In this document: positions 4,675 to 55,157 of the stretch, piece after piece | How positions within the stretch are numbered: position 1 is the first letter of the stretch | Layout of the letters: the number at the start of each line of letters is the position of its first letter | Assembly: GCA_030062745.1 (NCBI GenBank) | Contig: CP099840.1 | Span: forward strand, 33,855,101 to 33,919,100 | Source of the DNA: Capitulum mitella | Lineage: Eukaryota > Arthropoda > Thecostraca > Pollicipedomorpha > Pollicipedidae | Reading direction: 5' to 3' | Length of the DNA: 64,000 bases | Notes under the pieces: model-generated | What the model was told of the DNA's origin: nothing | Database searches by the model: none | Seen by the model: the letters and a program-made list of their open reading frames with translations, nothing else | Position numbers and translations under genes: made by a program

Positions 4675-4802
4675 CTGAAATGAAACAACGCGTGCTCATT
4701 GCTGCCATCTGAAAGCATTCCGAGATAGTTTACAGCCTAAACATGGGCAACGACAGGCGGCCGTTCACATAGGCATCAAAAAAATCCTCCAAACACACCG
4801 GA

Positions 4803-16151: not shown

Positions 16152-19100
16152 AATTTCTACCTTTTATAATGCTCAAACCGTGTAACTGCGTTCATTAAAA
16201 CGAAACAACTTTTAGAGCGGACAGTTGACATAAAACTTACTTGAGGTAAAAAAACTCGTCCAAGGTCAATGACCTCGCTTCACTTCTTTTGACCTTGCAG
16301 AGTTAGTAAACGCTAGACGTGATCAAATGTACCGATGTTGTCTACCTTCACTGAAAACACGCCAAAAGACGCATGTAGCGCGCTTATTTACACTCAAGGT
16401 AACCCGTGTTGCTCGAAATCTGATCTGCAAAGAAAAATGACGCCATAGGTCAATGACCTAACATGACCTCTACCTGAAATCCTCCGTCAAGACGCCAGAT
16501 GAATGGAAATTGTCGTATTCCACGTTTTAACGCTCAAACAAATATCCTCTTCCTGTTTCGTTCGAAAAGTCGTACGGCATGGTCTGTACGGGCCGAGAAA
16601 GTGTTCAAAGATGACCTTTTTCGACCCCATTTTACCTCAAAGATATTGATCTAGGGTCATGAAAATTGCGCACAATGTAAATCGTTATGACCCCACCCTG
16701 TCCATAAAATTCCTTGTCTCTAGCTTTTTCCGTTTCCGAGATCGGAGGGGGACACTTTTATGCCCCCCCCCCTTTCCAGTGCGCGTTAGCTCGAAACCCC
16801 TTTCCACTGTGCAGGTTAACAGGCCGCGCATCAATTTCTTACGATTAAGACGCGATTAACTAGTCAAACAACAACTGGCCAAAATGAAATTAACATACGA
16901 CGGCTGAAAAAGTTAGGACATAACGCTGCATACGCTTTAGTTCTATTACCATCGCAATGGAATATATAACAGAGATTTAAGCGGAGCTTACTAGCCTCGT
17001 TAACTTTGCTATCGCAGAGACTTGCAAACCCGACAGTGAGTGGAATATTTCACCATCATCCAGTTACCGGAGGCATTTTCTCCTCGCTGCCTGTCTAGAG
17101 AAGCAATGATCCAGTTTTCGTAATTCAAACAGCGATCGATAGTACATCATCATAGGCTCCAGAGACCCATCTATTGACCTCGAGGCCTGAACGATGACGC
17201 CACAGGTCGGATCAAGGCCGCAGAATCGACGCTAATCTGACGACCGGTTCGCAGCCACGTTTACAGGACATGCATGGCCGGAACTGGCAATATGTAGCAT
17301 CAAGTGAGCTTACTTTGCCACATCAAATGATATTCTTGCAAAACGTGGCCTGAGCTCAACATAGCTTACGAAGATAAATGGGATCACGGCTTCATCTTTG
17401 ACCTTCTGAATAATCGCGCGCGGAACTAAACAAATCGTGTTGTTCTCCGTCTCAGTCCCGTAAACTGCATTTAGAAACTGCATCCATGATTCACGTTATG
17501 ACGCCATATATGACCTAACCTATGATGGCCTGGTCAAAATTGTTTTGCCTTGGTTTCTTTAGCAAGATTCCGTACGTACGTCTTTTGGTGCAACCATGTT
17601 TATTTGTCTCCTCATTCTGCAAAATTATTATTTACTCTCGATAGTCCTGTGGAAGGAAAATGCGAATGTCCTATCGTCCACCTTGGACCCATCCTCGATA
17701 CTGCCACGCTTCATTACTTTGTTTTAGCTCCATGACACAAAGTACAACTAATTTAACCACTGCAGTTAACGTGCATGATTACTTTCTACGTCGCGGCCAT
17801 ATTTTGGACAGCCGGTGCATTCGCTGCGTGCACAGCGACACCGAGCATCAGGAAAAGCCACCATGCTGGATCGCATGCGGGAGTCCCATCTCTCCCTTGG
17901 TAAACGTGCGAGGCCGTATTCCTGACCTCGTATATCTTGAGCCGGATCAGGTCGATCTCGGGCCTGTGGATCAGCAGCCAGCGGTAGGCGGTCTTCTGGC
18001 GCCAGCCGACGTTCCGTGGGTCGATCCACAGCAGCTTGACCTGACAAACACCGCGTCCGCCCTCAGCACGAAAGACGGCCAGCCGCCACGGTTACCGTGG
18101 CGCCACGGTAACCGTGGCGGCTGTCATTGTATACCAGGAGAGAAAGGTTTTGAGGAGGTCGGAAAGGGGAAGGGATGCCCAGAATCCATCCAATATCCAC
18201 AGGCAGGTCTGTCGCCATTGGTATACTTGACTTCTAATCCTTCGTATAACTGACGGATGAGGATAGTTATACACCTTCTAATGACTTGTAACGTAGCTCC
18301 CAAATGCCGAATATAACTACGGTTTAAGAAGTGAAATATATCGCTTAAAAATCAGATGACAGCGTAAAAAGGCAAGGCTGATGTGCCTTAAACAAACAGT
18401 TGTATTAAAGGTCGTCCAAATTTCGTATAAAAGCAGTTTTATGTATATCTTGGTATAGTTTCAGCTCTGTAAGGGTCGTCGTAAGGTGCGTTGAGAGGGG
18501 CTCATTTTTTATGGCAAGAAGTGGTCGTTTCTTATCACGGGTTCAAAGGCAGGGATGGGCAAGCCAGTGTTGCGTGTGAAAATCTCCCTTGGGATTGCAT
18601 GAGACTCATTTCTTAAAAGACCAAGTCGGTTCACAGTGCGGCGATCAGCCAGGAATGCCCATTTACCACAATTCCAGCCGGAGCTCCATTTTCAGCCGCA
18701 CAGCGCCGGCAGCGAGGGATGCAATGGCGGCCGCGGGACACACAGCAGCGCACACCGGCTGCCCGCCCGCACCTGGTTGGCCGTGTCGCCGGTGTGCCAG
18801 AGGGAGTTCCTCATCATGACGCCCGGCCCGGTCTCCGACTTGACGGCCTTCAGCTGGATGCCCGGCTCGGCCACGGCGCGGAACGGCGCCGACTGCCAGT
18901 ACGTCTGCGCGCTCTTCTTCCACATGACCGTGTAGAAGCGACCGTTGTCCTGGTAGCTGGGGACGGCGCCGGCCGGCGTCAGACGCCAGCTCTTCCGGCG
19001 TGGCGAGACATGCTCGGGCCGAGGCGAGGTCTTCCGCAGAGTGAGCCATGCAAGCACCTCAGCTTCGGGGGAATGGCAAGTGAGCGCTGCTCACGAACAA

Positions 19101-19837
19101 AGTGCACTGCGAGATAACTAGAGGCAGTGTTCAGCCGTTCATGATGTCTGGAGATTGTGGCGTCGCGACGAATGGCATATTTCCTCTTGTGAAGTGTGAA
19201 GTTTGATATCTATTTTCATTCTAAAATAAATGTTCGTTTTAGTTGCATACACTCGCCATCATGAATGTATTCAGGGAGACGTTTCCTACCTGAAGACGAA
19301 GCCCACGTAGTCGTCGTCAATCTCCGTGTCTACGAAGAACGTGCCTTCAAAGTCCAGCCCGCTGAATCGATGATACCCTGTGCGTAATGAATGTGGATGA
19401 AAGCAAACTTGCAAAAACAGAAATTGGGCAAAATAAGGATGTTCTAGTGATGAACGGCTCACGACTTCACGACACGTTTTTTCGCATCAGTGTTCCACGA
19501 AGTAGATCCTTATTGGTCACACTCAGTAAGACAATGAAGGGAAAATGTGTCACTGTGAGCGTATACTGCACGCAGTTCAATGCGTTTTTTTTTTCGTGGA
19601 CCATCTGATTCCGCAGCGGTGTTACGTGTCACGTGCGGTCTGGTGCCCGTGACGAGAGCGACTGGCTCTTTTCTGCTCGTTGGTACAGTCCATGGTGGAA
19701 GACTCCGACACTTACCGACCGCCAGGCCCGGGTCGCTGTTCATTGTCTGCACAATCTCGGCGCCCTGGTTGTAGATGGCCCAGTTCGGGTCGATCTGAGA
19801 GTCTCCGTACGGGTCCAAGACCACGGTCTGGTATGTT
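14619..19837 (-). CDS. Thrombospondin exons 15-20: L-lectin-like C-terminal domain
   Basis: Exons 19716-19837, 19290-19377, 18773-18956, 17927-18040, 15019-15142 and 14619-14737 give the well conserved thrombospondin C-terminal domain. Landmarks are [76 protein letters not shown] and [18 protein letters not shown] short tail ends TKPVV at a TAG (14619-14621). Exon 20 joins through G+AC (Asp1005). The last two introns carry a 2.8-kb repeat-rich block and a small 0.3-kb gap. Confidence 0.93.
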
Positions 19838-22342
19838 CTGCAAGGCGCAAGATCAGATCACATGGCCCGGGCAGTGGAGAGGGAATTAAAAACGGCGCCA
19901 GGTTCAGACGTGTAAGACATCGAAACAATTCCTGCAAGCCTGTGAACAAGCAAGGTTCAGTTCTTTGCATAATGTTTATGAAAGACGTAACATGTTAACT
20001 GCATTCACGCACAATGCGATTGGGTGCAGTGACGATTCGAAAATAGCCAAAATGCGCAGACGTGACCAATTTTGCTTCAACGATTCGCTCTGCAGATCAC
20101 GAGTTCAAAACAGACCAGACCGCGTGCCCACCTGAAGTCGGTGGCGTAGATGCGCGAGTTGTTGGGACAGTTGTCCAGCTGGTTGGGCACCCTGTCGCCG
20201 TCGTCGTCGTCCTGGCAGGCGTCGCCGCGGCCGTCGCCGTCGGCGTCCTCCTGGTCGGCGTTGGCGACCAGCGGGCAGTTGTCGGCCGCGTCCGGCACGC
20301 CGTCGTCGTCGTCGTCGTCGTCGCAGGCGTCGCCGCGGCCGTCGCCGTCCGTGTCCAGCTGGTCGGCGTTGGCCGTGTCCGGACAGTTGTCAGAGTCCGT
20401 CTGGAAGCCGTCGCTGCAGGGAAAACGATGTGAGAAGCAGGGCGTTGGACTCCTGGAACTCTGCAGCACGGAAACCTGACTATCATCAGCAACGAAAGCC
20501 CGTGCTTGTATTTTGAATCTTCGAGAACACTACCGCCAGTTACGATGTTGATGATGATGATGATTATTATTATTACTAATATGGCGATCATGATGACGCC
20601 AATGGTCTTCACGATAATAATAACATTAGTCATCATCATTGTCATGAGTAAGGCTATGATTGATTATGATGATGGCGATTACTGTCTTTTTGCATAAGCG
20701 TCTCATTTGGGCTCGACGTGTCTTGATTTGTTCGGGGTTTCCAGGCGTCATGACCCGGCGCATTAGGTCCTGACCTGTCCGGGTCGTCGTCCGTGTCGCA
20801 GGCATCTCCCACCAGGTCCATGTCCTTGTCGTCCTGAAGCGGGTTGGGCGTGCCGGGGCAGTTATCGCAGAGGTCGCCGAGGCCGTCGCCATCTGAGTCG
20901 GCCTGGTCCTGGTTCGCCACCAGGGGGCAGTTGTCCCGCTCGTTCGGGATGGCTGTGAACGGCACGCGGCGCCGTGCCAGGGCTCGGCCGGGAAGCCACA
21001 CGAATGCATCAGGTCTCTACCCGCCAGAGTCTCCCCTCGGTGAGAGTCGCGCGCAAAGCTTGAACTACGGATACGTAACGGCCATGTATACGACCTCCTT
21101 CACGCGCACGCATGCGCTCTGCGCACTTTTGAACCTTTCCCCTGGTGAATGTCGTCAACAAAAATTGTCCTACGAGAATGTGACGGCCATAGATATGATC
21201 TCCTTCCAGTGCACATATGAGTTCATGTACACCGCAGACCCACACCGGGGGGGGCGACGTGACCACGACCCCCGTTTTTCGACTTCCAGCGTAAGCCCTG
21301 CAGCGCTGCGCGAAACAAATCAACCAAAAATCTGCACGAGCGAATCTGGGACATCCGCCACACGACCAGTCACGCTTCACACGCAAGCGCCGGGCGCGGA
21401 GGGCGCCACCGCTCACTGTCGTCGTCCTTGTCCGGATCGCAGGCGTCGCCCACGCCGTCCTCGTCGGTGTCCTCCTGGTTGGTGTTGGCCACGGTGGGAC
21501 AGTTGTCGCAGACGTCCCCGCGCCGGTCCGCGCCCTCCGGCTCCGAGTCGCGCTGGTCCGCGTTCTTCGTCTGCGGACAGTTGTCCTGGGGGCACGCGGT
21601 GACCGTGACGTACGTGACGGTCGTATGTGGCGTTGCGGTGACCGTAACGCACGGCTGAGGGCGGTGTCCTGGGAACACACGGCGCGTTAAAACGTGTAGC
21701 CGAGGACAGTGTCCTGCAACGGTGTCGTGGAAAAACAACACTGCTTCAAAGCGTACACGCCGATAAAAATAGTGTCCTGAAAACTCGCAGTGCCAGCTCA
21801 GCCTCATTACAGTCCCGTGTGCAGTGCCTTGTTCATGGGACACACGTCATACATCATATACACGTTACACATTCTTTGCACTACAGGCGAGCAGAAAGCA
21901 GGTCAAGCTCTGCTCAGTTCCGTCCAGTCCATTAGGCGCAGAACGGCTAGGCCTTCGGGGCAGGAACTGCGTGACCGTCAGGTCAGGTGACCCGGACGCA
22001 GTACTGACCGGTCCGTTGGGCACGCCGTCGTTGTCGGCGTCCTCGTCGCAGGCGTCGCCCATGCCGTCCCCGTCCGTGTCGTCCTGACCGGAGTTGGGCG
22101 TCTGCACGCAGTTGTCCTGCCGAACACGGCCGAGCCGCAGCCGGGACTCAGCGGACTGCCGCCGGACCTCCGGCGTCACACGGGACACGACACGCACGAA
22201 CACGATAAAGCCGGAACAGCTGATGCTTGAAATGTTGGAAATGTTACAGTGTTTCATGGCTTACATATTTTACGTATTATGCCCAAAAGCTGAGACGTTT
22301 TAAAGAAAGACTTGTGCGCAGCATGAATAAAGTGAGCTGGTG

Positions 22343-22402
<60 letters not shown>

Positions 22403-22403
22403 C

Positions 22404-22451
<48 letters not shown>

Positions 22452-22546
22452 GTTTCATGGATTACATATTTTACGTATTACGCCCAAAGCTGAGACGTTT
22501 TAAAGAAATATTTGTGCGCAGCATGCATAAACTGAGCCCAGTGAAT

Positions 22547-22596
<50 letters not shown>

Positions 22597-25292
22597 AAGA
22601 TTGCAACTCCCTCATTTATTTATTTGTTATATTTGACTGTGTTAAGTTTATGTTCATGCACAGAGATGCACGTGTGTGCATTACACTGAAAGCAGATAGT
22701 ACCTACAGAGGATCGCATCACCAGAACGGGCCGGTACTCCAGGACAGTACCTTCCTGCACATTCTGTCCGTGCAGTTGAGCTCGACGTCCGGGAACCGGT
22801 CCAGGTCGGTGTCCGGGCCGCAGAGTTGGCCGTCGCCCGCCCAGCCGATCTTGCACTGCACCGAGCGCAGACAGACACACGTACATACGGACAGGTCAGC
22901 GGGAGCGGCGGGGCAAATCGCACCAGACACGCTCAGACTGCGTGGTACAGTTGAAGAATGTTCGCGAAAGTCGAGGTTGCTGCATGTCTGTTCGCTTGTC
23001 AGTGTTTTGCAACATCGCCCATTTTAAAGGTCATGGCTGCTTTCATTTTTCCGCACCTTTGACAAGGTAAAGCCTTAGTGTGTATGTGAAAGACATTGGC
23101 CCCTTTCCACACGCCTAAACGGCGAGAAGTGAAACACATCGACGGATGTTCCAGAAACGAGGACCATGACCGTGGCCGACCGCCGCGCGCCGGCTGTGCC
23201 GGCTGTGCCGCCTGTGCCACTCACCGTACACATGTAGTGGCGCGATCCGTACGGCCTGTGACAGTCGGCGTGGCCGTCACACTGCGTGCCGTCTGGACAG
23301 AGGCCGGGCCGCTCCCGGCAGCCCGTCTCCTGGTCGCCGACGAACCCCTCAATGCAGGCGCCGCACCGGTACGAGCCCACCGTGTTCTCGCACTCCGAGT
23401 TGGCCACGCAGACGCCCTCGTCGCACTCGTTGATGTCGTAGCAACGCTGCGGGTTCTGGCGCGCGAACGCCACCCCCGAGCCCTAGCGGCGGAGGGGGCT
23501 GGTTGGCTGAGGGAGAGCTCGTGATCAGACGTGACAGGGGAGTGACGTCGGGCAAGAGTCAAGCTTGGGTATGGCAGCGAACCAACTGACACAAGACACT
23601 TCAGGAACACAGGTGCAGTTTACTGGGATGGAAACATGTAGATGAAACGTAGTCCTAATCTGTGCGTAGCACACAGAGAGTTTCTGTCTCGAAATATAAA
23701 ACAGAGAACAAAGGCCACAGACAAAACAGGCAAAATTTCGGAGGCACCTATCCGCACACTCAGCCCGGCACTAGCACCGCTCCTCACTACACTCGGAACG
23801 GTACCTGCCCCGCACATGCCAGCCCATGTACCGTTGCTCAGCACCCTCGGCACGGTACCTGCACGCGGCTGCCGCCGGTGAAGCCGGGCGGGCAGGGGCC
23901 GCACCGGTACCCGCCGGCCAGGTTCTGGCAGGCGGCGCGCGGGTCGCACGGTCGCGCCAGCTCGCACTCGTCCTCGTCCTCGCACTGCTGCCCGTTGCCC
24001 TGGTAGCCGGGCGGGCAGCGGCCGCACCGGTAGAACGGAGCGCCCGGGATGTCCCGGCACTCCACGCCTGGGGGCAGGGGCGCGGGACGACTGGAGGGTG
24101 CAGGCTATCTCACAGGACTGTCGGACCGCTGCGCTTACGGCGTCGCCGCTGCTGGACTGGCATGGTAGCGATGTCATCGCTCTTGGAGTGACGCGGTAGC
24201 GAATTCAGTCATTACAGTACTGAATGACTGAGGCAGTACATACAATGCAGGAACCTGACGAACGTTGAGGCTGAGATGACAAGTGCTTTCCATGCAGCAG
24301 GGTCCTCAGTTTGACATTGGCGACGCCGACTTTTTTTGTTATTTTTGCCGTATGCATTGGAGAATGGCTGTTTTACCTGGGAAACAAGGCCTTGATGCGC
24401 ACCCGCTGACTGGAGTGCATGTCCGTCCGTCCCCTGTCATACCCGGAGGGCACGGACCGCACCTGGCGCCCTCTGCCGTGTCTCGACACTCGACGCCTGG
24501 CGGACGGAAATGGAATTACAAACTGCTCCGCGACGCTCGGGTACGGTATTCGCATAACCACTCCTAAACCTACGCTGTGTTCGAAATTATTCCAGCGTTG
24601 CTTGAAAGAGACCTACCCAGGTACACTAAATCCTTATATCCTTGCATTATCAAGGTTCAGAGACTTCCTGACGTTTTCTATAAACGCTGAACGATATAAG
24701 TAATTTTACTGCTTTTCGTCACTTACAGTGCTTAATTTAACGTGCTTGCTCTCCTGACAACACAAATTTGCCGTTGAAACTGACGTAGTAAAGGTACGCA
24801 AAGTGGTTTCAGTGTTCTCTGCTGGAGGTCGGCAAAGGCTTTCACCGCGTTGTCTCGTTATTTCCCGTCCCGCATCGCAATTTACGCTGTTTCCCAGTGC
24901 CAATGCGTCAACCAAACGTCTCTCCTTCAGCCTCCATGGTCCTGGACCGATCACTTCTGTCCAAAAGAGCTCTTATCACACTAAATCCGGTCGGGGGATG
25001 AGTTTCTGACTTCTCTGGCTGCTCGGCGACGGCCCACCTCTGAAGCAGGTGTCGGCCCGACAGACGGTGCGGCGCCGGCAGCGGCGACCGTCGCCGACGA
25101 AGCCCTCCGGGCAGGGACCGCAGCGAGTGCGGCCCGCCTCCTCCTCGCAGCGCACGCCCGGGTAGCACGGGTGTGTGTCGCACGTCTCCTGTGGCGGCGC
25201 TGTCCCACAGCACACGCTCGGGTCAGGCGAGGCGGCGTGTGAGAGGCGCAGGTCTCCTGTAGCGGTGCTGTCCAACAACGCATAGACAGACA

Positions 25293-38474: not shown

Positions 38475-38569
38475 GCTGTCGCCTGGCGGTGGACGGTGCT
38501 GGAGCCGGCTCCTCCCGCTGCGGCCGAGGCTACACTGCAGCCCGGCCGGCGGCACGGCGCCTTCCCCGA

Positions 38570-39115
38570 CCGGGGCAGGCGAGGGCGGCGTCTGATCATG
38601 GGACACCACCGCCCCAGAGCCTGAACAGGGTACACCACCGCCCCTCCTCCCCCTCTCTCCCAGGCCGGGGCAGGCGAGGACGGCGTCTGATCATGGGACA
38701 CCACCGCCCCAGAGCCTGAACAGGGTACACCACCGCCCCTCCTCTCCTCCCCTCCCCGACCGGGGCAGGCGAGGGCGGCGTCTGAACAGGGAACGCCACC
38801 GCCCCCAGGGTCTCGACAGGGCACACCACCTTCCCCAGAGTCTGGACAGGGCACACCACTGCCCCCTTCCCGCCACTGCCCCCCCCCCCACCGGAGCAGG
38901 CGAGGGCGGCGTTGAAACAGGGAATACCATCACCCCCAGAGCCTGAGCAGGGTATACCACCGCTTTCCCCACCCCTCCCCGACCGGGGCAGACCAGGACG
39001 GCATCTGAACAGGGCACATCACCGCCCCTAGGGTCTGAACAAAGCACAGTACCGCCCCCAGGGTCTGAACACGGTACACCACCCCCTCCCAGGGCCTGAA
39101 CAGGGGACACCATCG
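38570..39115. repeat. Minisatellite at the 5' flank of the thrombospondin gene
   Basis: Two alternating modules repeat: GACCGGGGCAGGCGAGG-like and CTGAACAGGG-ACACCACCGCC-like, with sub-units near 30 bp and higher-order units of about 120 bp. The array starts about 95 bp upstream of the thrombospondin ATG, so it overlaps the likely promoter or 5' leader. Confidence 0.85.
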
Positions 39116-42714: not shown

Positions 42715-43137
42715 CTACCACCAGACGATTTCGGCCGTCTGATACTGACACCAGTCGAGCACCAGGCCCTGGATCAGCAGCGACGGCGGCTTCATGCTCT
42801 GGCTGACCGTCAGAAACTCGTGGACCTGCGTCCCCCCGTGATCCGTCAGCACGGCAGTCATGTTCGACACCTCCTTCATGATGCCGAACACCTTGAGCTG
42901 GTCCAGCACGGACGTGTAGCCGTTCGAGTGGTAGAAGTCACAGAATCTGCCGTCGAGGTTGGAGGTGATGGTGATGTTCGTGTTGCGGACGGAGAGGTCC
43001 ACCGTCTGCGGCTCGATGGTGTCGTTGCCAGGCAGGTAGACCGAGCCGGAGGCCGTGTAGTCGCCCTCACAGGAGAGCGCGATCGTCACCGAGTAGTTGC
43101 CGATTGTGCGCTGCTCCTCCATCGTTTGTCCAGGTTG
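42715..43137 (-). CDS. GH31 gene exon 4: C-terminal beta domain
   Basis: The acceptor TTTTGTCACAG joins in phase 0 to give VIFNQQPGQTM, the place where active members carry the conserved strand ending near 'QQP'. The exon continues with ASGSVYLPGND, matching the usual ASGxLYxDDG turn, and ends EIVWW at a TAG (42715-42717). There is no second membrane span. Confidence 0.87.
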   Translation of the reverse strand, partial: QPGQTMEEQRTIGNYSVTIALSCEGDYTASGSVYLPGNDTIEPQTVDLSVRNTNITITSNLDGRFCDFYHSNGYTSVLDQLKVFGIMKEVSNMTAVLTDHGGTQVHEFLTVSQSMKPPSLLIQGLVLDWCQYQTAEIVWW

Positions 43138-46100
43138 CTGTGACAAAACGCGTCATCGTCAGCTGGTTTCGGCTAATCTGTGCTGCACACGACAGATAAT
43201 GTTGATACTTGTATCGCAAAGGCCTCAGATATGGCGTTGTCGTATCGTTCGCATCGGTGTATGGGCTTCTCGTCACCATAGCTTATACTAGTATCGTTCA
43301 CAGCATCAAAAGGAGGACAGTGCTCTGTACCCTCAATATCGTACATATCGACCATTTCAAAATCTTGAACAACGCATGTGTCAGTTTCCCCTGTCTTTTT
43401 GTTTTGTTAAGTTTACTGATGCATGTCGACCTGCCAAACAATTCCTTGACATAACGTTTTTTTCCTGTTCCACCCAAACGTACTGAAAATATGAGCATGC
43501 TGATGATTATTTTTTCCCCCTAAATAACAATCCAAGTGAACAAAAATAATGCCCCAGTGGCTCATGTCATTCGAACCCTGAAGCAGTACACATCCCCGAA
43601 TCCTCTCAGCCACCGTTCGGCTCTCGTGCAGTGTACCTGGTTGAAGATGACTGTGCCGGAGCGCTGGTAGATCAGGGTCTGCTGCGACGGCACCGGCAGC
43701 GTTACCCAGCCCGGTCCGGACTCCACCTTGGGTCGGTACCCCTGGAAGTACTCGTACCAGCACAGGCCGGGCAGGTACAGCCGCACCTCCAGCTGCTTCT
43801 CCTCCAGCGCCGGCGCCACCATGAGCGCAGGCCCCAGCAGCAGCTGCTCGTCGATGGCCCAGGTGACGTTGTCCTCGGCGAACTCGTACCAGAGCGGGCG
43901 CAGCGGCGGCGCGCCAGTGCGGGCCGCCTCCGCCAGCAGCGAGAAGTGGTACGGCGCGAACACGTACCGCTGCCGGATCTGCAGCATCGTCTGGATCAGG
44001 GACGCCTCGCTCAGGTGCGGCGGGTTGCGCGGCGCGTGGCCGGCCTCGTAGAAGCTGACCGCCAGCGGCAGGTAGGGCACCAGCTGGTACCAGAGCAGGC
44101 AGAGCGCCTCGAACCGGTCGACGTCCTCGGCCGAGATGTGCGTCGAGTTGCGCGAGCCGCAGACCGGGTAGCCGCTCTGCGGCACGCCGTACAGCCCCAG
44201 CTCGAGCGCCTGCACCAGCGCCAGCTTCAGGCTGGTCCAGTCGGCCGTGAGGCCGGCCGCCAGCTGGCCGCCGTGGGCGCCGCTGCCCGGACCTGTGGCC
44301 GTGCTGGTCAGCAGGAGGCCGGGCCGGCCGGTGCCGGCCGCCGCCCGCACCGCCGCCGTCTGCGCTCGCCCGTAGACGTTGTGCAGCGCCAGGTGGTCCG
44401 CGGCACCCTGCCGCGCCGACATGCAGACGGTGCCGTTCGAGAGCGTGCCAGACTCGCCGACGTTGGGCACGAACGGCAGCGCGTCGGCTTCGCAGTCGTC
44501 CGGCGCGTCGTTGGCCGGCGCGTTCCGCATCAGGAAGACGCCGTCGACGCCGTAGTCGTCGAAGAGCTTGTCGTAGAGCGGCTTCAGCCAGGTGAGGGTG
44601 TCGGGGTTGGCGTAGTCGACGTACGAGACGTTCCAGGTGCGGTTGCCTGCGGCGTCGTGCAGCTCACCGTAGAAGTTGTCCGTGTCGTTGGCGTTGCGCA
44701 GCAGAAGGTCGGCCTCGTCGGCCTGCCGGTACGGCTCGTACAGCTCGGGCTGCGGCTCGCCGAGCGGCTGCCGGTGCAGCGGCAGCTGCGGCCAGCTGAC
44801 GGTCGTCAGCCGGCGGCCGAGCTGTCGCAGCTTCTCGCCGCCGTCCCGGAACGCCTGTTCCATCTCCTCGCCGGGCTCCACGCCGAACGGCAGCAGCGCG
44901 TCGGCGTCGACGCAGTCCGACTCGAACGGCACGGTGCGGTTCAGCATCGTCTCCAGCACGTCGGTGAAGCTGGCGGCGTCGTCCTGGCGGCACATGTGGA
45001 AGCCGAGCGACCAGAGCGGCGGCATGCGCGGCCGGCCCACCAGCCGGGTGTACTGTTCTGAGACGAGCGCCGGCGTCGGCCCGGCGAACACGTGCAGCCG
45101 CAGGCGGCCGGCCAGCAGACGCAGCGTCACGGTCGGCCCGGGCAGCAGCTGCGCCTCCAGCGGCGCCAGCGTCTCCACGTACACGCCGTGCGCGGCGCCG
45201 TCCGGCTCCAGGCCCACGTAGAACGGGTGGAAGCCCTCCGAGAAGAGGACCGGCCGCGAGAAGAGCGCCGTGCGCAGCGGGCTGTCGAACTGGCGCTGCA
45301 GGCTCGGGTGGAACGCCTGGCCCAGCCCGAACACGGCCGTCGACGCCGGCACCAGCGTCAGCTCGGTGAAGAGCTCGCTGACGATCGTCGCGCCGAGCCG
45401 CGTGTCGAGCAGCCGCCGGCCGCTGCTGTTGCGCGCCACCACCGCGTAGAAGTCCCAGTCGTCGCCGATGTTGGACGTCACCGTCAGCTCACCGTCGACG
45501 GTGACGATCTGCGACTCTGCGACGGTCGTCGGCTCGCCCAGCTCCAGCACGGCGTGGTCCTGCTCCGGGCACCAGGCGCGCGCGTGCAGCCGAGGCCGCT
45601 GCGGCGTGCCGTACGGCGTGCGGGCGTCGCGGCCGGCCGCCTCGTCCGCGTACGAGTACGCCCTGAGATCGGCCAGCACGTCCGAGTCGTTCTTCCCGGC
45701 CGAGTCGATCTTGAACGTGTAGGAGGCGGGCAGCGAGTGGAAACAGCTGGCCGGCGCGTCTGCAGCGTTGCCCTGGTCGTACCAGCAGCAGCCGGCCATG
45801 GCGCACTGCCTGTCCGTCACGTTCGCCTGCCCCACCAGGCACGGGAACCTGTCACAGAGCCGTCAGTCACATTCCACACGGCACAACAGGCGCGGAAACC
45901 TGCCACACCGAGCCGTCACATTTCACAAAGGGCTGTCACGTTCAGGTGGACCGACGAGGTTACCGGAGCTTGCCGCCGCGGTACGTCAGATTGCAGGTGG
46001 CTCTGCAGTGCAGTGGGATCTGTCACGGGAAGCCGTCATATTTGCAGGGCCCGACCAGAGCACGAGGACCCCTCACCGTGAGACGTCAAATTCAATCGGC

Positions 46101-49100
46101 CGGGCATGCGATCCTGTCACAGGGAGCTGTCCACAGTCGTAGCCAAAGGAAGGCGAAGAGCACGCCCCCCAGGCCCATATTATCTTGTGAAAACCATTGC
46201 ATGTCGTCTTTCCGGCAGGGGTTTTCGTATGATATCACTTCACATTTGTCTCCGCTCTCCCCCTCCTTTCAAGAAAATTCTGGCTGCCCCCTGAAGCTGT
46301 CTCTTTCAGGCAGTCCACCAGGTCATGGGAACCTGCTACACCCAGACGGTTATTATGCTCCATTTTATTTTTTACGGTCACTTCAGGTGTTATGTTACCC
46401 ATCAGGAAGCCTTCCAGTCAGAGGTTAATGTCCTGGGCGCATCTACACAGTAAACTATGATGTGTTTATTCGTACCGGGAGCAACTGTACATAGGATTTT
46501 GTCACCATATTTGCTTTATATTGGTTTCGTAATGTTGCGGAATTTTCGTCTCAGTTTCAGCCGTGGTCGTTTGATAATTTGCATCTATATAACGGTGACT
46601 TCAGCCCTCCAAGAATCTATGATGGCCAAAAGAATCTATAATATCCAAAGAATCTATAATATTATATAGATATTATAATATAATATAATCCAAAGAATCT
46701 ATAATATCCAAACTACTTTTGGGTATCGTAGCACAGCAACGGGTGTAGTGTGTTAGAAAACTGATAATGATAATAATAACCCGCGCCCGACTGTGGGTCG
46801 CCGCCATGCGTGCTCGACTGGGGGAGGGTTGACCGTCCCCCATTAACACTCGAACGGTTGGTCGTACGATAAAAATAAGCACACCACTGGAAAGCTCATG
46901 ACGAGTAGAACTCGAAACTGGCCTCATGTCTAATCTTGGATAATATATAAACCATTTACGCCCTATATATGTTTTCTCATAGCCGATTGCATGAGACCGA
47001 GAAATGGCCTGAATCTCAAGGGCTGTGACTAACAAAGTCCAGATGAAGGCCGCAGCGGACCGGTAAAAGTCCGCAGATGCCGATACACGCCTAATTTCTC
47101 TGATTTCTTTCATATGTACACGGAAATGCTGGGTTAAAGACACGGTGATTTTCTCAACGCCGCAAGGCGGGCGCCGCTCGACGAATGCGGTATGAAATTA
47201 ACGGGAACTGATTTCGGCGTTCTTGCGTTTTCGCGAAATATGCCATTCTAAGTGTTGTCTCTTGGTCCTAGTGGGTCTTGGGATGATTCCCCATTCTTTA
47301 ATTTTGGAGAAACCCAGTGGTTATCAATCTACACAACTGATGGAGTTTTATTGGCGAAAGTCTGTTTGATCCCAAAAGAAGCAATTTTTTAAATTTTTTG
47401 AACTTTCTGGTATTAGTCGCAACTGTGAGGGCCATTTCTGTCAGTTTCAATCCGATCTGAGTCATTCATCGCCGATTTTGATGGCAGTGCATTTTGACTC
47501 ATAACAGTTATTCGTGACCTCACCTCAGGTCAGTGGCTGGAGGTCATTGAAACTTTGTCCATTGACGGAAACTGGACGTCTGTATCTCCAAACACTTAAA
47601 TTGTTTTAAAGAATTCCGCCAATTTTCGAGGAGAAAACGACAACTCATGTTGAAAACGGGTTTGACCTTGGGTCAATAACACGGACATTTCTGGAAAGTC
47701 CGAGATAGCGAATTTGTTGCATTCATCAAAATCTTTAACCCTGTGAAGAGCTTTAGTTTGATATCACGTTTTGTAAAAAAGATGCAGGGCACTAAACTTT
47801 TTTGGACCCATGTCCCGTTTGACCTGACCTAGGTCAGACACTTTACTTGACCTGAGGTGAAAAACTGGATACAAGGTATTTCGTGGCGCTATGTTTGTTC
47901 GTTCTGCCGCAATCTCGGAAAAACCTGGGGGAGGGGCGGTCAACCGCCACCCCCCAGTCGGGGGCGGGATAACTATAAATATCAAAGTGACTTGAACGAC
48001 CCACCAGTTCAGCAGCTTTTCTATAAAAACAGTCCGCAGTCCGGTATATGGGGCCTTGGTCCGCATTATCAAAGCGTGAATGCATTATGAGCCATAACTG
48101 TGAATTCCACCTGGTCCTTACCGTAAAAAGCGCTGGCATAGCCGAGAGGCCGATAAGCGATTAAGCAGGTATTCAGAGATTCGGCCGTCTTTAGCAACCG
48201 CTCCATTCTCCCGATGTCCGATCCAGCACCATTGTTTACGTCGCATTGTTATAGACTTCTGCCGACAGTTAGCCTTGAGTTCCCCTCTCCCGGTACCGCT
48301 GGGAGCCCGGGCGAGCGCCCGTCGCCTTGAACTGCCCTTAGTCGCCGGAACGATCATCGCCGTTAAGTGACGTCACGCCCGCCTGGGACGGGCGGTGAGT
48401 CAGAATCTCCGTTCGTCCATTTCCCTAATCCCACGCTCGGAACTCGCTCGCTCGGATCGAATAACTAAGGATCCATAAGCAGTCCACACTCAGCAAGCGG
48501 CCAACAGGCACCGCAGATTTCAGTCTTATGTTGTTCTGGAAAGGTACATGGACCGATGTTTTTTGTTTTTTACATGGACCGATGTTTTTTGACCGATGTG
48601 TGTAGGTTTAAAATATCTCTTCTCTGTCACTACATAGCAAGTGTCATGTCGACATTACTGGAGTAACTTCAGATTTTGCCTCGTCCGTGGTCTTTTCATA
48701 TTCATATCGAAGCATTCGAAACGCGTTTTTAAATGCAGTGCGGATAGGCATATCGGGTGTGCATAAAGTCCTGGCGGTTCCCACCGTCTTCATGGTTGCA
48801 ATTATATAACACGTAATATGTAAACGATTTTCCGCGTAAACTTAAATTATATTTTGTATGCTGATGATGCTGCATTTTTTAGAGTAATAATGTTCATAGG
48901 CGCGGGAGCCATGGGGCCAGGGGGCTTCAGCCCCCCCCCCTCAACTTTTTGAAAATTTTACATTGACCTTACGGACGTTGACTAGAAAGATTTGACCCAA
49001 AACGCTTCTCCCCCCAACCCAACTGAAGGAGGAGTTCCTGTGCCCCTGATAATGTTCAACATATGCAAATCGTCATTGATGATGAGCTTCCGAAAATTTG

Positions 49101-52100
49101 CAAATGCTTGCACACTAATAAACCTTCATTAAACAAAAGAAAAAATATCGCCAACTTTATAGTAATTCACAGAAAAACATAACATGAAATGTGGTACTGT
49201 GTGGAAGTAATATAAGGTTTGTTCACAAAACCAAATATTTAGGAAAGTACATAGATCGCATATTGTCCTGGAATTACCATATTAGTCATATGTGCGATAT
49301 TGTAAGTAAAAAGATAGGAATTCTCTAAAGCTCCAGATTTTTCCTCGACCAAAATTCAGTGTTTTTTCTGCACAGTGCATTTATATTACATATTTGAATT
49401 TCTGCTGTCTAATTTGGGACTAATACATTTGCCACATGTTTAAATAAAGTTGAGCTTCTTCAAAAAAGTGCAGTCAGAATCATCACTGGACATTATAGAC
49501 TGTCGCCATCTGAGCCATTATTCAAAAACCTTAATTTTCTTAGTCAAGGATTTGTTTGAACAGTTAGCCATTTCTCTTATGCACAGAACAATCAAAGGAA
49601 CTCTACCACTAGATATTAACCTATCCTTCACTCTAGCAAACCATTCTCGTAGAACTTCCAGACTCACTTGTCATCTGACTGAACCATTTACCTCAAAACT
49701 ATATAGAAACCGCACTGTTACATGGATTGCCCTTCGTCTTTGGAATTCAATTATAACGTCCAAATACCCTTTCATAAACAAAGTTCCTACTTCAACATAT
49801 AGCATAAAACACGAAGTAAAACAGTTCATCGTTGGTATCCATAAAAAACAAATGATGTACAATACCACACATCATATAGAATTTCTTCATTTCCATTTCT
49901 TATCTAGCTCCTAGTAGAAACGTTATGACATATGTGACGGACATCGCGCTTCATGACCACTCCTGTTTTGTTTATTGCACTTTGTAAAGACGCCAACCGG
50001 TGCAATGGATTCCACTACATATACCGATTTATCATGTCTCATTATCACCCCCAGTTAGCTGCTGGCTCTATGACCTCACCCGGCAACAGGCATTGAGCTT
50101 AGCCGGGTGTTGTCATGCGAGCCCTGCAATGTGCAACAGCTCGCTTTCGGCCAGGATGTGACCATGAATTTACCCTAATTCTTAGTTTACACTGATACGG
50201 GGAAGGTGCAATGGCCATCCAAATGCTGATTTTAACACTGGATACTTTACTTTTTCATCTGTGGCAGCTTCATTGACATAGCAGTGCCTGTAACACCTAA
50301 TGTGGCATTTTCTCCCGATCTGCATTTTTTCCTTTCCTAGCAGGGAGTGCCGCGACTCGCTAATTTTTAAGTTTTCGCATTAAAATGGTGTTAATGTATG
50401 GTGCTTTGCATCGCGGCAGTTCGTGGGTGAAAGCACTCGTGGTCATCCGTTCATGGGTGACGTTAAAAAAAAATAATAAAAATCCTGGCGATCCGCCTGA
50501 TGGCCTGACTGGGATTGCCTGATGAACTGGGTCCCGGCGACCAAGTTCCGGAGGTTGCGGACAGTTTGAGGCCGGCCAGACCTGAGGTCCTCTTCCAGAT
50601 TCTCTTCAGACCGCAGCTTGGCCTTGATTCGTTGGACGGTCCTCGCTCCCACGCCAATGTCCGTCGCCACTTGTGCATCCGTCTTCCCTGGTCCGGCCGA
50701 TCCCCGTAGGTAGTCAGCGACACGTTGTCCTTTCACTTGCTTTTGCATTACTGGACATGGAACTGAGGGGCTGCAGGCCTCTATTTAGCGTGGCAGGATC
50801 AGCAGGGTCAAGCCTCCGGCCCTTGGCAGCTTGCCAACCCATCAGTCTACGTAAACTCGATGAACATGAACCCGCCAGAACTTAATGCGCACCCTGTACA
50901 CGGTGAAGGCAAACAGCCAGAGACGAGGGAGTCCGTGAGCCGATACGACGGAGCGCCTCAGAAGCAGCCGATGGTCGGAACCCGAGGCCAGATCGTCTCT
51001 CAGTATGAACACATCTAATATGAACACATCTCAGTGTGGCCCGCTGCAGCCAGAGCCAGGCTGCTCCCCCTGCAGCACGTTGGGCAAGACTGCATTCAGA
51101 ATCGCTGTCAATTTGATGCGACTACCCGACACGACAGTGTGGGGTAATCTGGGGTAATTTTGTGCCCTGAGCCCGATCTCGCTGTCTGTTTTGGCACACA
51201 GTGTGCCAGTAGCTCGGAAGGGGCAAATTCCTCAATTTACCTTGGTCGGCAAATTTGTGTACGGGCGGATGCCGGTTCCGGAACTGCTAAACGTGGTTAT
51301 GAACAGGATATTGCTAAACTTAAGACGGCCAGGTGAAATACAGAAGGGACCACTAGTATTGCTGTAGTTGCAATGATGAGCACACAAATTACACATGGCC
51401 TAAGTAAGAGCAATTTTTGCCCCAAATGTAGGATTTTCTGTTTCACCGTTTTACTGCTTTACGGCAATGGGTATGCATAAACGACGGATGATTGGCAACA
51501 AATCGGTCCCGAATAGTAGTCCACATGTGAAAAGGTCCTTCAGATAGATCAATGACGTTTCCAAGGTTAAAGAGGTCACGGATGTATAAGTTGACCTATA
51601 GGTTGTCATACTAATTTTGGCATTGAATGTGATAAAGGACTATTTTAGGACCACTTGACCCAAATGGGTTGTTTTTAACTCTGGAAAATCGAGTTACGGT
51701 TCTTAAGCATAAGGTATGAACTGGCCTAAAAGGTCAACGGTTGACCTGACGGAATCGAGCTGGATACCGTCGGATTTCTTGGGCACACAGATATTGATTG
51801 CTTTTTGACCCGCGGCCCTAACTCAATTAGAGGCCAAATGGTGAGGGGATGACTACTACAACCCCCCCCCCCCACTCCCGTTATCGGTGCGCGTGAAAAT
51901 TCCTCTCGCCCGGCGAGGGTTAAGCTACGGACCTATGTTAAGGAATTCAGCAATCAGCTGTCGTCTCGATAACACCTCCATGCTGTTTAATGTCCTCAAA
52001 AAGTTTCCTACTCCACGTGATGCCGAGCGGCCAGTCTCATACCTCTACACGTGACTGCGAACTGACGAGACAAAGGACGAGAGGCGCTGAAGAGCATCAG

Positions 52101-55100
52101 AGGCACAGATGCTCCCTTTGTCACCCGACCTGGACGTGTCATATCGGTCTCTTTCTCGCTCTCCGTTAATCTGACATCTACCACCGCAGCGCGGCAGCAG
52201 CTGGCGGTCCGCGTTGCGGTCAGCTGGTACCGCACGACTCCCGCACATGACCGCTGAAACCGGAATTATGGATTTTATGCCAAAATGCGCAGCTTTGCCC
52301 TTGGGATCCATTATCTAAAGACATTGGGGAGTCGATATGTAAAAACATTAGGTGAGACTAGGTGGAACTCGCTGTATAACTCGACACTTCCCTCGGGTAG
52401 CTATTTTATAAATGTTCATCTCGCCCTCCTCACTGAACTGTGAAAAACAGGTCCGAAATTTCCCGTTCCATTTTTACCAGTGGTTGTTACCACAGGCAGC
52501 TGAGCCAAGCAAACCCATGCAATGGCTATTTTTATTGTAGAATAACCGAATCCGGACTAACAGCTTAACGAACGTGGCTCATTGACGGCGCGGCTCGCGT
52601 CGTCGTGCCGGACAGCGGCGCGTCGCGGTGATGCGCTGGCTGCGGTCGGCGAGCGGGGCATCCGTGCCGCAGGAGGCCAGGAGCTTGTGGGTGGGACCGA
52701 GCTGATAACCAGCCGCACCCCACCACGCCGAGAGGAAACCGGACGTGACGAAACGCGTATGCCTGGGTGATGACTGCAGTGTTCTTTCATAAAGTGATGC
52801 GGAAATCGGCAGAATGAGCAGGAAGTGCATTGCATTTTATTTTTTTTAATTTCTTGACAGCTTTGGTAGCGTGCAGTTCTAGTGAAAAAGCTCGATCTAA
52901 GGCAGTTCCAATATTCCGGTGTTCTTGGCGGTCGTCACATATATGACATTGTTGTAAACGAAGTTTCCTCAAATGGGGTTTACAAACCCATCCGGTGAAG
53001 GTGGATCTGAAATCACATAATGGCAGCCGAGGCCCAAACGAAAAGAGTTAGGAGTTAAAAGTGCACCTGCTCGAAGGATTATACCGTCGGTCTAGCAGAT
53101 TACCTCGCCGAGCATGTGGTCTACGTTCTCACGAGAGCTTCTCAGTTGAGAAAAAACACAGCCAGCAGGACAAGACTGATGATGAAATGGGCGATACACG
53201 TTTCGGGTGCATTTTCTTGTGCCATGACCTCGGCTACGCTGTGCAGTTTCTCCCACAAGTCCGTTTTTTAATCAGTCCCAACTCAAATTAATAAAAACCG
53301 TCCTGCATTGGATACTTCATTTCATGTTTAAAAGTAACAGCACGAGTCACAGGTCAGGAGACGTTACAGAAGGAACAGCACATATGATCAGGAGGTCATG
53401 ACTCCATACTTTTTGAAAGGACGTTTTAAGGACGAATAACACAACCATGTCAGTTAGTCGATCTCGTCTAGCCCCTGCAGCGGTAAGAACATCGTAACCC
53501 TGTCTGTAATGTCTTCGACGGTTTCGTAAGGACAAAATGCAGTTGATGGTAAAATGATCTCATTATTGAAATTGAATGTAGTCGTTAAAAAGGGGTGTTT
53601 TTCACATCATGCATTTGACATGCGATAGGAAATGACATGGAACAATGCATTTCAGTGACAGTCATTACATTTTCGAAGGCTCGAACGAGGTAGGCGTTAA
53701 TAGTGAAACTGAAAAGTTGCAGCGCAGTTGTAACCGCTATTCACGGGGTTTGCACTGGTTCTCAAAATTAACATTGACATCGAGATTGTGTCGTGCTGAG
53801 GTGATTTCCATGCTCGTTGCCTGATGGTGATCGATCCTGAACAAAGTGCCAGAAGTCACCTCATTGCTCGTGGTATTTTAAAGCGGGTAACTACCTGCAA
53901 ACGGTCTAAGAGCCTTGCGGTTGACGAATGACGAACTAAAGGAACCCACTGCTGACCGAACGAGGTGCCGATAAAGGCTTGCGGTTAAGACATGTCTTGG
54001 GAATGGTCAGCATCATCAGCGTCATCAGCAACAACGACATAAAGGAGGGATCCAGATCTAACTCATCGCACCTTGGAATGGGTTGAACAGGACGCGCTGT
54101 AACAACTGGCGGAATTTCGCATGATGCAATCCGCACGGACCTGTGGCCACTTACGATGAACACCACTGCGGCACCCTCACCTGTACTGTGGCCCAATCAT
54201 GCAGCTGCCCCGGGTGTAAATGGGCAACTCCACGTCCAGCGGGTAAAAGTAGAGGAACCACATAGGAATCAGCAGGCCTATGCCGATGCACGCCACTCCC
54301 AGGTACAAGAACCGCGCCGACTTGTTGGTGAGGACGTCCAACGTTTTGTCTGCAACAGAACCGAGAGTGTGAACGAACCACATCCGTCCGCTGGCAGTTC
54401 AGGTACTTTCCGCAAACATTACCGACGACTCCCAGTCGTTTTGCTGTTGACGGTAAGGTACGTTGAGTTCGTATTTGTTCTTAATTTAAATCAGGATTCT
54501 CGAGCAAACAGACGTGTGTCCAGGACGCTGCGGCCAGCGATCCCATTTTTTCTAAATGGGGTAGTTTTTCCAAGCTCGCTGTAGGGTTCAAATTTAACAC
54601 ACCACGCGCACCGACTATTCACATCCAGCGAGGCCATCCTGGATACAGCGGCCATGCCTTTACGCAACAACGATCATCGCTCACAGTTCACAGTCGACCC
54701 ATGGCTCTAAGCCAGGACCGACCCACGGCTTTAGCCAGGAGTCTGTTCATTTATTTTCTGTCCTTGAAATGTCAGTGACCTGCTTTTCTGAGAAAATGCA
54801 GCGATTTTCAGTCATTTACAGGAGTCGCAAATTTGTCACACAATCAAAATACGATATGGCAAATTTCCGCAAAATGCACAAATCCCTTTTGACGTGCTGA
54901 GATCTATAGCACTCCATGAGTTTACTACCTACTGTTGGTGTTGACCACCAGGGGCGCAGCCAGGATTCTCTTAAGCGACGGGGAGGGGGGGGCTCAGTGT
55001 GAACTGAAATCACACGAAAACCGCCTGCTGTAAAGGCGTTGTGCGATGGTTTTCACAAAAATGCGGGCTGCACCAGTGTTGACCACTGACCTTTCAGGCC

Positions 55101-55157
55101 CCTTTCCTGTTCGTCCACAAGTGCTTCATTGTCATCCCCGGAACCTTTCTTCGCCAT
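42715..55157 (-). CDS. Membrane-anchored glycosyl hydrolase family 31 homologue, probable pseudoenzyme (4 exons)
   Basis: Exons in transcript order: 55091-55157, 54181-54349, 43637-45848, 42715-43137. All GT/AG and phase-matched, 956 residues, normal for sucrase-isomaltase/acid alpha-glucosidase relatives. Order: acidic cytosolic tail (1-35), transmembrane segment (about 36-58), trefoil module with Cys 72, 82, 94, 99, 100, 114, then the GH31 N-domain, barrel and C-terminal beta domains. Family landmarks kept: PPLWSLGFHMCR (355-366) and LHNVYGR. Active-site landmarks lost: the nucleophile box reads DGVFLMRNAPAN, with Met519 and Ala522 where active members have Asp and Glu; the acid/base box has Gly611 for Asp; the DICG box reads YPVCG. 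It therefore probably does not cleave alpha-glucosides; a binding, scaffold or receptor role is inferred. The start ATG has a GTCGCCATGG context. Confidence 0.92.
43637..45848 (-). CDS. GH31 gene exon 3: trefoil remainder and GH31 core
   Basis: This single 2212-base exon, very GC-rich, carries the rest of the trefoil (CAMAGCCWYDQ), the N-terminal beta domain and the whole catalytic-type barrel. It ends at TTCAACCAG|GTACAC. Many N-glycosylation sequons (for example NVT, NSS, NRT, NGT) fit an extracellular position. The exon reads without stops or frameshifts, so loss of active-site residues is not explained by general decay. Confidence 0.93.
46780..47968. mobile_element. Complete piggyBac-like MITE, family A (1189 bp)
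   Basis: The inverted ends are CCCGCGCCCGACTG at the left and CAGTCGGGGGCGGG at the right, flanked by ATAA on both sides (46776-46779 and 47969-47972), a variant of the TTAA site. The right 650 bp match positions 1-667. It is non-coding and lies in the GH31 intron between exons 2 and 3. Confidence 0.75.
48545..48605. repeat. Short tandem duplication (about 26 bp)
   Basis: ACATGGACCGATGTTTTTTG occurs twice, followed by a third partial GACCGATGTG. Confidence 0.7.
48750..49965 (+). pseudogene. Decayed non-LTR retrotransposon reverse transcriptase (CR1/Jockey-like)
   Basis: Out-of-frame pieces of a LINE reverse transcriptase appear in order. There is a degenerate G-x-x-x-V-L-x-x-P block near 48758, YVNDFP near 48813, then the catalytic YADDAAFF at 48857-48880. 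After a nested insertion come TKYLGKYIDRILSWNYH (about 49230-49290) and the thumb/C-terminal part from about 49450, including LAISLMHRTIKGTLP and RTVTWIALRLWNS. Frameshifts and stops separate the pieces, so it is inactive. Assignment to a specific clade is uncertain. Confidence 0.7.
48897..49048. mobile_element. 152-bp non-autonomous insertion nested in the LINE
   Basis: The 10-bp direct repeat ATAATGTTCA flanks it exactly (48887-48896 and 49049-49058). It opens TAGGCGCGGGAGCCATGGGG, contains C- and G-runs, and ends GTGCCCCTG. It interrupts the reverse transcriptase right after the YADD box, so it is younger than the LINE. It resembles the GGCGYAGCCAGG fragments elsewhere here. Confidence 0.75.
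50443..50748 (-). pseudogene. Mariner/Tc1-type transposase N-terminal fragment
   Basis: About 101 open codons start MQKQVKGQRVADYL. They contain a helix-turn-helix (DAQVATDIGVGARTVQRIKA) followed by an RSGRPQTVR linker, the typical DNA-binding half of mariner-like transposases. Past NLVA the frame slips: the NPSQAIRRIAR text expected next lies in another frame. The catalytic half is missing. It lies in the GH31 intron. Confidence 0.65.
51840..51935. mobile_element. Possible right end of another TTAA-type element
   Basis: A C-run is followed by TCTCGCCCGGCGAGGG and then TTAA, with AGGTCA-rich text upstream from about 51560. This is the same architecture as the MITE right ends at 667 and 41815. 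I could not find the left end. Confidence 0.35.
52579..52762 (-). CDS. Candidate last exon of an unidentified gene, inside the GH31 intron
   Basis: After an acceptor-like TCATCACCCAG on the minus strand, a GC-rich open segment reads FVTSGFLSAWWGAAGYQLG, then THKLLASCGTDAPLADRS, and ends RREPRRQ at a TGA (52579-52581). Third-position GC is high, as in confirmed exons. No partner exon or known domain was found, so it could be chance or a repeat. Confidence 0.22.
54181..55157 (-). CDS. GH31 gene exons 1-2: cytosolic tail, membrane anchor and start of the trefoil
   Basis: Exon 1 (55091-55157) encodes MAKKGSGDDNEALVDEQERG and LK plus one base, ending at AAAG|GTCAGT. Exon 2 (54181-54349) starts after TTCTGTTGCAG. 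It supplies FLYLGVACIGIGLLIPMWFL as the membrane span and the first trefoil Cys (SCMIGPQYR). Its last two bases AG join G of exon 3 to make Arg79 just before FPC. The protein has no cleavable signal peptide, so type II topology with the hydrolase-like part outside is expected, as in sucrase-isomaltase. Confidence 0.87.
54949..55000 (+). mobile_element. Fragment of the dispersed GGCGYAGCCAGG-type repeat
   Basis: AGGGGCGCAGCCAGGATTCT is followed by a G run (GGGGAGGGGGGGGC), within the GH31 intron between exons 1 and 2. Confidence 0.45.

Follow-up and report, generated by a model that had tools for sequence, protein, structure and literature searches.

A trefoil-bearing GH31 protein of Capitulum mitella that lacks both catalytic acids, a candidate membrane pseudoenzyme

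A 64,000-nucleotide stretch of the Capitulum mitella genome (assembly GCA_030062745.1, contig CP099840.1, positions 33,855,101 to 33,919,100), referred to here as the window, carries a four-exon gene of glycoside hydrolase family 31 (GH31) on its minus strand, from position 55157 to position 42715 of the window. The spliced coding sequence is 2871 nucleotides in length, encodes 956 amino acids with no internal stops, and is interrupted by three GT-AG introns. The intact, stop-free 956-residue model proposed in a first-pass annotation of this DNA is borne out by this frame and its junctions. The question raised by the locus is whether such a protein can still hydrolyze glucosides and, if it cannot, what it might do instead. 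We think it fairly probable that it is a GH31 pseudoenzyme, that is, a type II membrane glycoprotein of the GAA, maltase-glucoamylase (MGAM) and sucrase-isomaltase (SI) kind that is without GH31 hydrolysis and most likely acts through protein partners.

Three positions that carry Asp in active relatives are occupied by other residues.

44528..44530, minus strand: Met519 (codon ATG), at the position of the catalytic nucleophile (GAA D518), placed by alignment and residue map
44252..44254, minus strand: Gly611, at the position of the catalytic acid/base (GAA D616), placed by alignments and residue map
44165..44167, minus strand: Pro640, at the Asp of the DICG/DVCG box (GAA D645), placed by alignment and residue map

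The nucleophile box, which starts at D514, reads DGVFLMRNAPAN and contains both Met519 and Ala522, the latter at the position of GAA E521. The DICG/DVCG box reads GYPVCG. Gly611 falls in the acid/base column in two alignments, the phmmer alignment with GAA and a MAFFT alignment with six prokaryotic GH31 frames, all of which have Asp in this column (6/6). The prokaryotic frames are the six loci found in a scan of genome contigs with a GH31 box pattern. The first-pass annotation had named Met519 and Ala522 in the nucleophile box, Gly611 in the acid/base box, and a DICG box without Asp, and each of these observations stands. It had also proposed an alignment as a check, and Asp is found at neither catalytic position when the protein is aligned with GAA or with the prokaryotic enzymes. 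The Asp nucleophile of the WIDMNE box, the Asp acid/base, and the sugar contacts of the -1 subsite, by which an active GH31 enzyme is recognized, are therefore all missing.

Judged from the aligned residues, the loss is broader than the first-pass annotation stated, as nearly the whole -1 sugar pocket appears to be replaced. The structure paper on GAA lists eleven residues that contact the iminosugar 1-deoxynojirimycin, and describes a second sugar site in the trefoil domain formed by D91, P125, and W126 (PMC5653652; here and below, statements on cited papers refer to the available parts of each text, except where a main text is named). On a map built from alignments of approximately 22-32% identity, only one of the eleven contacts is identical (D404, present as D393), two are conservative changes (I441 to Val and W516 to Phe), and eight are radical. 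The radical changes are R600 to Thr, H674 to Phe, W376 to Gln, M519 to Arg, W613 to Leu, F649 to Ser, D518 to Met, and D616 to Gly. The W481 of GAA, located at the tip of insert I, corresponds to His476. The trefoil sugar site is likewise replaced, with Pro81 for D91, Ala112 for P125, and Ser113 for W126. Across the barrel as a whole, 104 of 326 aligned columns are identical to GAA and 90 of 331 to porcine MGAM-Nt.

The losses are biased towards the pocket. Where human GAA and porcine MGAM have identical columns, the protein keeps 1 of 10 in the pocket, compared with 64 of 142 elsewhere (p=0.028, one-sided Fisher test). Among columns invariant in the six prokaryotic GH31 proteins, the corresponding counts are 1 of 10 and 40 of 70 (p=0.006, same test), and with five second-shell residues added to the pocket, 1 of 15 is kept (p=0.0003). 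Ten of these 85 invariant columns are fixed by construction, because the search pattern itself set the nucleophile box. When they are dropped, 1 of 7 pocket residues is kept versus 36 of 64 others (p=0.04), or 1 of 11 with the second shell (p=0.004). On pocket residues alone, the bias is thus present but modest.

Because both catalytic Asp residues and nearly the whole -1 pocket are replaced, the protein is predicted to lack GH31-type alpha-glucoside hydrolysis, a lack of activity that we infer from its residues.

The remainder of the protein retains the architecture of the family, as the following features show.

Approximately 54203 in exon 2, and 45737..45848 in exon 3, minus strand: trefoil (P-type) domain, amino acids 72-116 (PF00088)
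43940..45031, minus strand: GH31 TIM-barrel domain, amino acids 352-715 (PF01055, 1.2e-30, full model)
43646..43915, minus strand: GH31 C-terminal domain, amino acids 724-813 (PF21365, 5.9e-21, full model)
54243..54311, minus strand: predicted transmembrane segment, approximately amino acids 36-58 (hydropathy only)

In the exon 3 frame alone, PF01055 (7.6e-31) and PF21365 (6.7e-21) both exceed the curated Pfam cut-offs, which indicates that the resemblance to GH31 is not due to chance, and the barrel and C-terminal domain together place the protein in this family. The trefoil scores 16.7 bits with exon 3 only and 21.2 bits once exons 1 and 2 are joined to it, barely passing the Pfam cut-off of 21. 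In the PDB, the full protein matches MGAM (7.4e-130), GAA (1.3e-66), and SI (2.5e-55). Its NCBIfam matches lie far below the cut-off, the best being MalA with 134.8 bits versus 800.

All six trefoil cysteines are kept (72, 82, 94, 99, 100, and 114) and line up with their counterparts in the trefoil of GAA. Barrel cysteines 531, 554, 642, and 662 are also kept, align with GAA C533, C558, C647, and C658, and are cysteines in MGAM-Nt as well. We take these trefoil and barrel cysteines to pair as disulfides as they generally do. The six-cysteine trefoil ahead of the beta domain and the four barrel cysteines assign the protein to the GAA, MGAM, and SI group. The strongest hydrophobic segment follows a short N-terminal tail, with a Kyte-Doolittle 19-residue peak of 2.14 at amino acids 37-55, and 14 of the 15 N-X-S/T sequons lie beyond it. 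Hydropathy and homology together suggest a type II membrane glycoprotein with a single transmembrane segment.

The exons of the gene are as follows.

55091..55157, minus strand: exon 1, amino acids 1-22, with the start codon and the larger part of the short N-terminal tail (ATG at 55157, donor GT past 55091)
54181..54349, minus strand: exon 2, remaining tail, transmembrane segment, and Cys72, the first trefoil cysteine (AG acceptor, GT donor)
43637..45848, minus strand: exon 3, amino acids 79-816, comprising the remaining trefoil, N-terminal beta domain, GH31 barrel, and GH31 C-terminal domain (Pfam and PDB matches)
42715..43137, minus strand: exon 4, amino acids 817-956, distal C-terminal region and stop TAG (GT-AG intron)

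The GC content at third codon positions (GC3) is 0.936 over the coding sequence and 0.963 in exon 3, and the total GC of the introns is 0.44-0.49, a difference that constitutes a strong coding signature. Exon 4 alone gives no PDB matches at E<=1. For the full protein, the alignment with GAA spans amino acids 71-72 to 849-850 and that with MGAM 78-80 to 849-911, thus reaching into exon 4, as far as 909-911 in the longest MGAM matches. Homology therefore crosses both the exon 2/3 junction (amino acid 79) and the exon 3/4 junction (amino acid 816). Within intron 2, a minus-strand frame at 50446-50784 bears some resemblance to the N-terminus of a mariner-like transposase; the frame has no Pfam match.

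Mutation of the coding sequence was simulated with 500 runs at each of five levels of divergence (2, 5, 10, 20, and 30%). The mean number of stops was 1.7, 4.3, 8.4, 15.3, and 22.0, respectively. The share of stop-free runs was 17.4% at the lowest level and 2.0% at 5% divergence; at 10, 20, and 30%, every one of the 500 runs contained stops. A long neutral drift of the gene is thus unlikely, and by stop counts alone a recent onset of decay is compatible with what is seen. If the ancestor had the residues of the active enzyme, several of the replacements, namely Asp to ATG, Asp to TGG, Trp to CAC, and Asp to CCG, each took two or three substitutions within one codon, which speaks against a recent loss.

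The nearest described proteins are found among Diptera. In the sandfly Lutzomyia longipalpis, the "lysosomal alpha-glucosidase" LlLysAglu1, known from a truncated sequence and called a membrane protein, has Gln in place of both catalytic Asp residues and falls in a group with further dipteran proteins in which the catalytic residues are likewise missing (PMC8063059). The mosquito members of the clade have trefoil and NtCtMGAM domains, and the authors consider a loss of enzymatic activity plausible without giving a function (PMC8063059). The protein described here resembles this clade in being a GH31 protein with both catalytic residues lost and with trefoil and GAA/MGAM-type domains, and differs from LlLysAglu1 in having Met and Gly, rather than Gln, at the two positions. 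Compared by description, then, the gene would either add a member to a kind of protein already described in the literature or represent an independent case of it. Drosophila has none of these "lysosomal alpha-glucosidases" (PMC8063059) and no single direct GAA orthologue (PMC12786133). Among the papers examined, and in the parts of them available, PMC8063059 alone describes catalytically empty trefoil-type GH31 proteins. The available parts of the Diabrotica (PMC3981738) and Rhynchophorus (PMC12027728) papers do not mention lost GH31 catalytic residues, and the terms "glucosidase", "tobi", and "GH31" are absent from the main text of the FlyBase enzyme survey (PMC12869072).

Human GAA shares the trefoil, N-terminal beta domain, barrel, C-terminal domain, and aligned cysteines with the protein, but is an active lysosomal enzyme, whereas D518, D616, and most of the pocket are lost here. 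MGAM gives the best sequence matches. Both MGAM and SI have a membrane-anchored N-terminus, as is predicted for the protein in question, and SI has two catalytic units in tandem. These relatives differ in being active and in having two tandem units (MGAM structure 9kz6 matches in two stretches), whereas the window encodes a single dead unit. The NET37/MYORG-type GH31 proteins are also a membrane group, in which dipteran clade IV lacks the catalytic residues (PMC8063059). MYORG is nevertheless a weak match (7qqh, 1.2e-08), and sandfly NET37 is described with one transmembrane segment and a GH31_NET37 domain, a trefoil going unmentioned in the available text (PMC8063059).

The first-pass annotation had compared the protein to 4F2hc. 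4F2hc (SLC3A2) and rBAT (SLC3A1) are type II proteins with an ectodomain of the alpha-amylase family (GH13), joined to an SLC7 light chain by a neck disulfide between the transmembrane segment and the ectodomain, and 4F2hc is without catalytic residues (PMC8537225). The likeness holds for the type II topology (here from hydropathy), the single transmembrane segment near the N-terminus, the large glucosidase-like ectodomain with sequons, and, as an idea, a glucosidase fold that has lost its catalysis. It breaks down in that the ectodomain is GH31 rather than GH13 by Pfam and PDB matches, and in the neck. Cys43 lies within the transmembrane segment, and the first cysteine past it is Cys72, the first of the trefoil, leaving no free neck cysteine. 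A covalent heavy chain of the 4F2hc type was considered and is made less likely by this lack. The empty dipteran proteins are the closer comparison.

With neither catalytic acid, few sugar contacts, no trefoil sugar site of the GAA type, and the folding cysteines kept, a protein-binding membrane ectodomain is the simplest reading of the gene. This ectodomain probably folds, is braced by disulfides, and carries N-glycans, and would face the extracellular or endo-lysosomal space. Its most likely activity would be the binding of a protein partner rather than of glucosides, as a cell-surface or endosomal scaffold, an adhesion partner, or a trafficking subunit. What suggests this role is the exclusion of others, together with the analogy of other dead hydrolases, and the gene product is probably a surface protein with a non-enzymatic job. 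An intact and strongly codon-biased gene from which both sugar sites have been removed argues for a kept function. The first-pass annotation had proposed that selection kept the fold for something other than hydrolysis; the intact frame, codon bias, structural cysteines, and bias of the losses towards sugar contacts agree with this, while selection itself is read from one sequence.

Several observations weigh against this interpretation. The scaffold role is reached by exclusion, since no partner-binding feature was found, and selection for the fold is suggested by the codon bias and loss pattern of a single sequence. The fairer tests give only a modest excess of losses in the pocket (p=0.028 and p=0.04), and four of the five second-shell residues (D443, E521, D645, and R672) are our own choice. 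Compared with GAA by itself, the trefoil stretch is weak (11.3 bits, i-Evalue 1.4). Asp615, four residues past Gly611, is the nearest acidic residue to the lost acid/base, in a column that is variable in the MAFFT alignment. For exon 3 (737 amino acids), the AlphaFold2 model built from a seven-row alignment is weak, with a mean predicted local distance difference test (pLDDT) score of 54.6, a predicted template modelling score of 0.60, and pLDDT below 50 for model residues 1-162. Foldseek places GAA first for this model (E 2.7e-35, TM-score 0.65 by query length), followed by MGAM and SI, a match that is partly built in because the alignment included active-type GH31 sequences. The model is thus weak support for a retained fold and is uninformative on the pocket.

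Other explanations can be set against the same evidence. The dead protein might pair with an active GH31 maltase or glucosidase paralogue and control its folding, transport, or activity in the manner of a prozyme. There are known cases of a catalytically dead paralogue regulating an active one (PMC5201418), and the full domain set is what a like-with-like interface would require. However, the 64-kb window holds no second GH31 gene, as tblastn (with two other matches at E 3.3 and 7.7) and six-frame phmmer recover only the gene's own exons. The linked active paralogue that the first-pass annotation proposed to look for is thus not found within the window, and we regard this explanation as unlikely. 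Viral contigs were also scanned with the exon 3 protein, a search that reaches close relatives only; 20 stretches matched the pattern and none was a confirmed relative. Slightly less likely is a lectin-like glycan receptor, which would have lost hydrolysis and would still bind sugar in the old pocket or the trefoil. Proteins that lose only catalysis and go on binding usually retain their sugar contacts, which we count against this possibility. The precedent of two sugar sites in GAA, one of them in the trefoil (PMC5653652), and the retained sugar-contacting Asp (D404, as D393) speak for it. The reading is lowered because the residues at both GAA sugar sites are replaced, including R600, H674, W376, W613, M519, and F649 in the pocket and D91, P125, and W126 in the trefoil.

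Much less probable is an enzyme with altered chemistry or a new substrate that uses other residues of a remodelled pocket. GH31 includes activities besides alpha-glucosidase (PMC8063059), catalytic residues may have migrated in some pseudoenzymes (PMC10211241), and both D393 and the nearby D615 are present. Met, Gly, and Pro nonetheless occupy the nucleophile, acid/base, and D645 positions, and the column of D615 is variable. No GH31 chemistry that dispenses with the nucleophile Asp is known to us, which counts against such an enzyme. Early gene decay or an assembly artefact is of similarly low probability. The fraction of simulated runs still stop-free at 2% and 5% divergence would allow for it; the absence of such runs at each of the higher levels, the multi-base codon changes in the pocket, which are slower to arise, and the intact splice sites, GC3, cysteines, and domain junctions do not favor it. 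A sequencing error or pseudogene was accordingly rejected as the main explanation on the basis of the frame, splice sites, GC3, and stop simulation. By weight, the alternatives rank approximately as regulatory partner, glycan receptor, changed enzyme, and decaying gene.

Other features of the window lie apart from the GH31 gene. An 820-amino-acid open frame at 2277-4736 (minus strand, Met at 4673) has a signal-peptide-like start, MFAKARLLWLLGATTLWVV, and approximately 40 tandem 15-amino-acid units of the type RRSEERRMDTRRADS, encoded by a 45-bp repeat (Tandem Repeats Finder, 2384-4377, 44.4 copies). Pfam yields nothing for this frame at E<=0.01. In a comparison of 37 of the RRSEERRMDTRRADS units, codons that differ by a single base form 1214 synonymous and 1070 non-synonymous pairs, counts that are uncorrected for gene conversion and relatedness and that hint at constraint on the units. 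A thrombospondin/COMP-like gene is present on the minus strand at approximately 18695-23482, with TSP_C at 18695-19090, TSP_3 repeats at 20080-20529, and calcium-binding EGF at 23078-23482. At 38563-39112 lie complex tandem repeats whose periods range from 30 to 223 bases. Searches of the whole window with Rfam (gathering scores) and ARAGORN gave no matches.

Returning to the pseudoenzyme, its likeness to the dipteran proteins raises a wider possibility, one that we hold only tentatively and consider rather doubtful. Trefoil-GH31 pseudoenzymes may be an old class that extends beyond Diptera, in which a maltase fold became a membrane-anchored protein-binding subunit. This class would be the independently arisen GH31 counterpart of the GH13-derived transporter heavy chains and of other dead-hydrolase receptors. 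No description of a non-enzymatic job for such trefoil-GH31 proteins was found in the literature searched, which covered few subscription journals. If the interpretation is true, catalysis in a trefoil-GH31 protein can be lost along with the sugar sites while the fold stays, which would point to a non-enzymatic job for the fold, and caution is warranted in labelling such genes as alpha-glucosidases.

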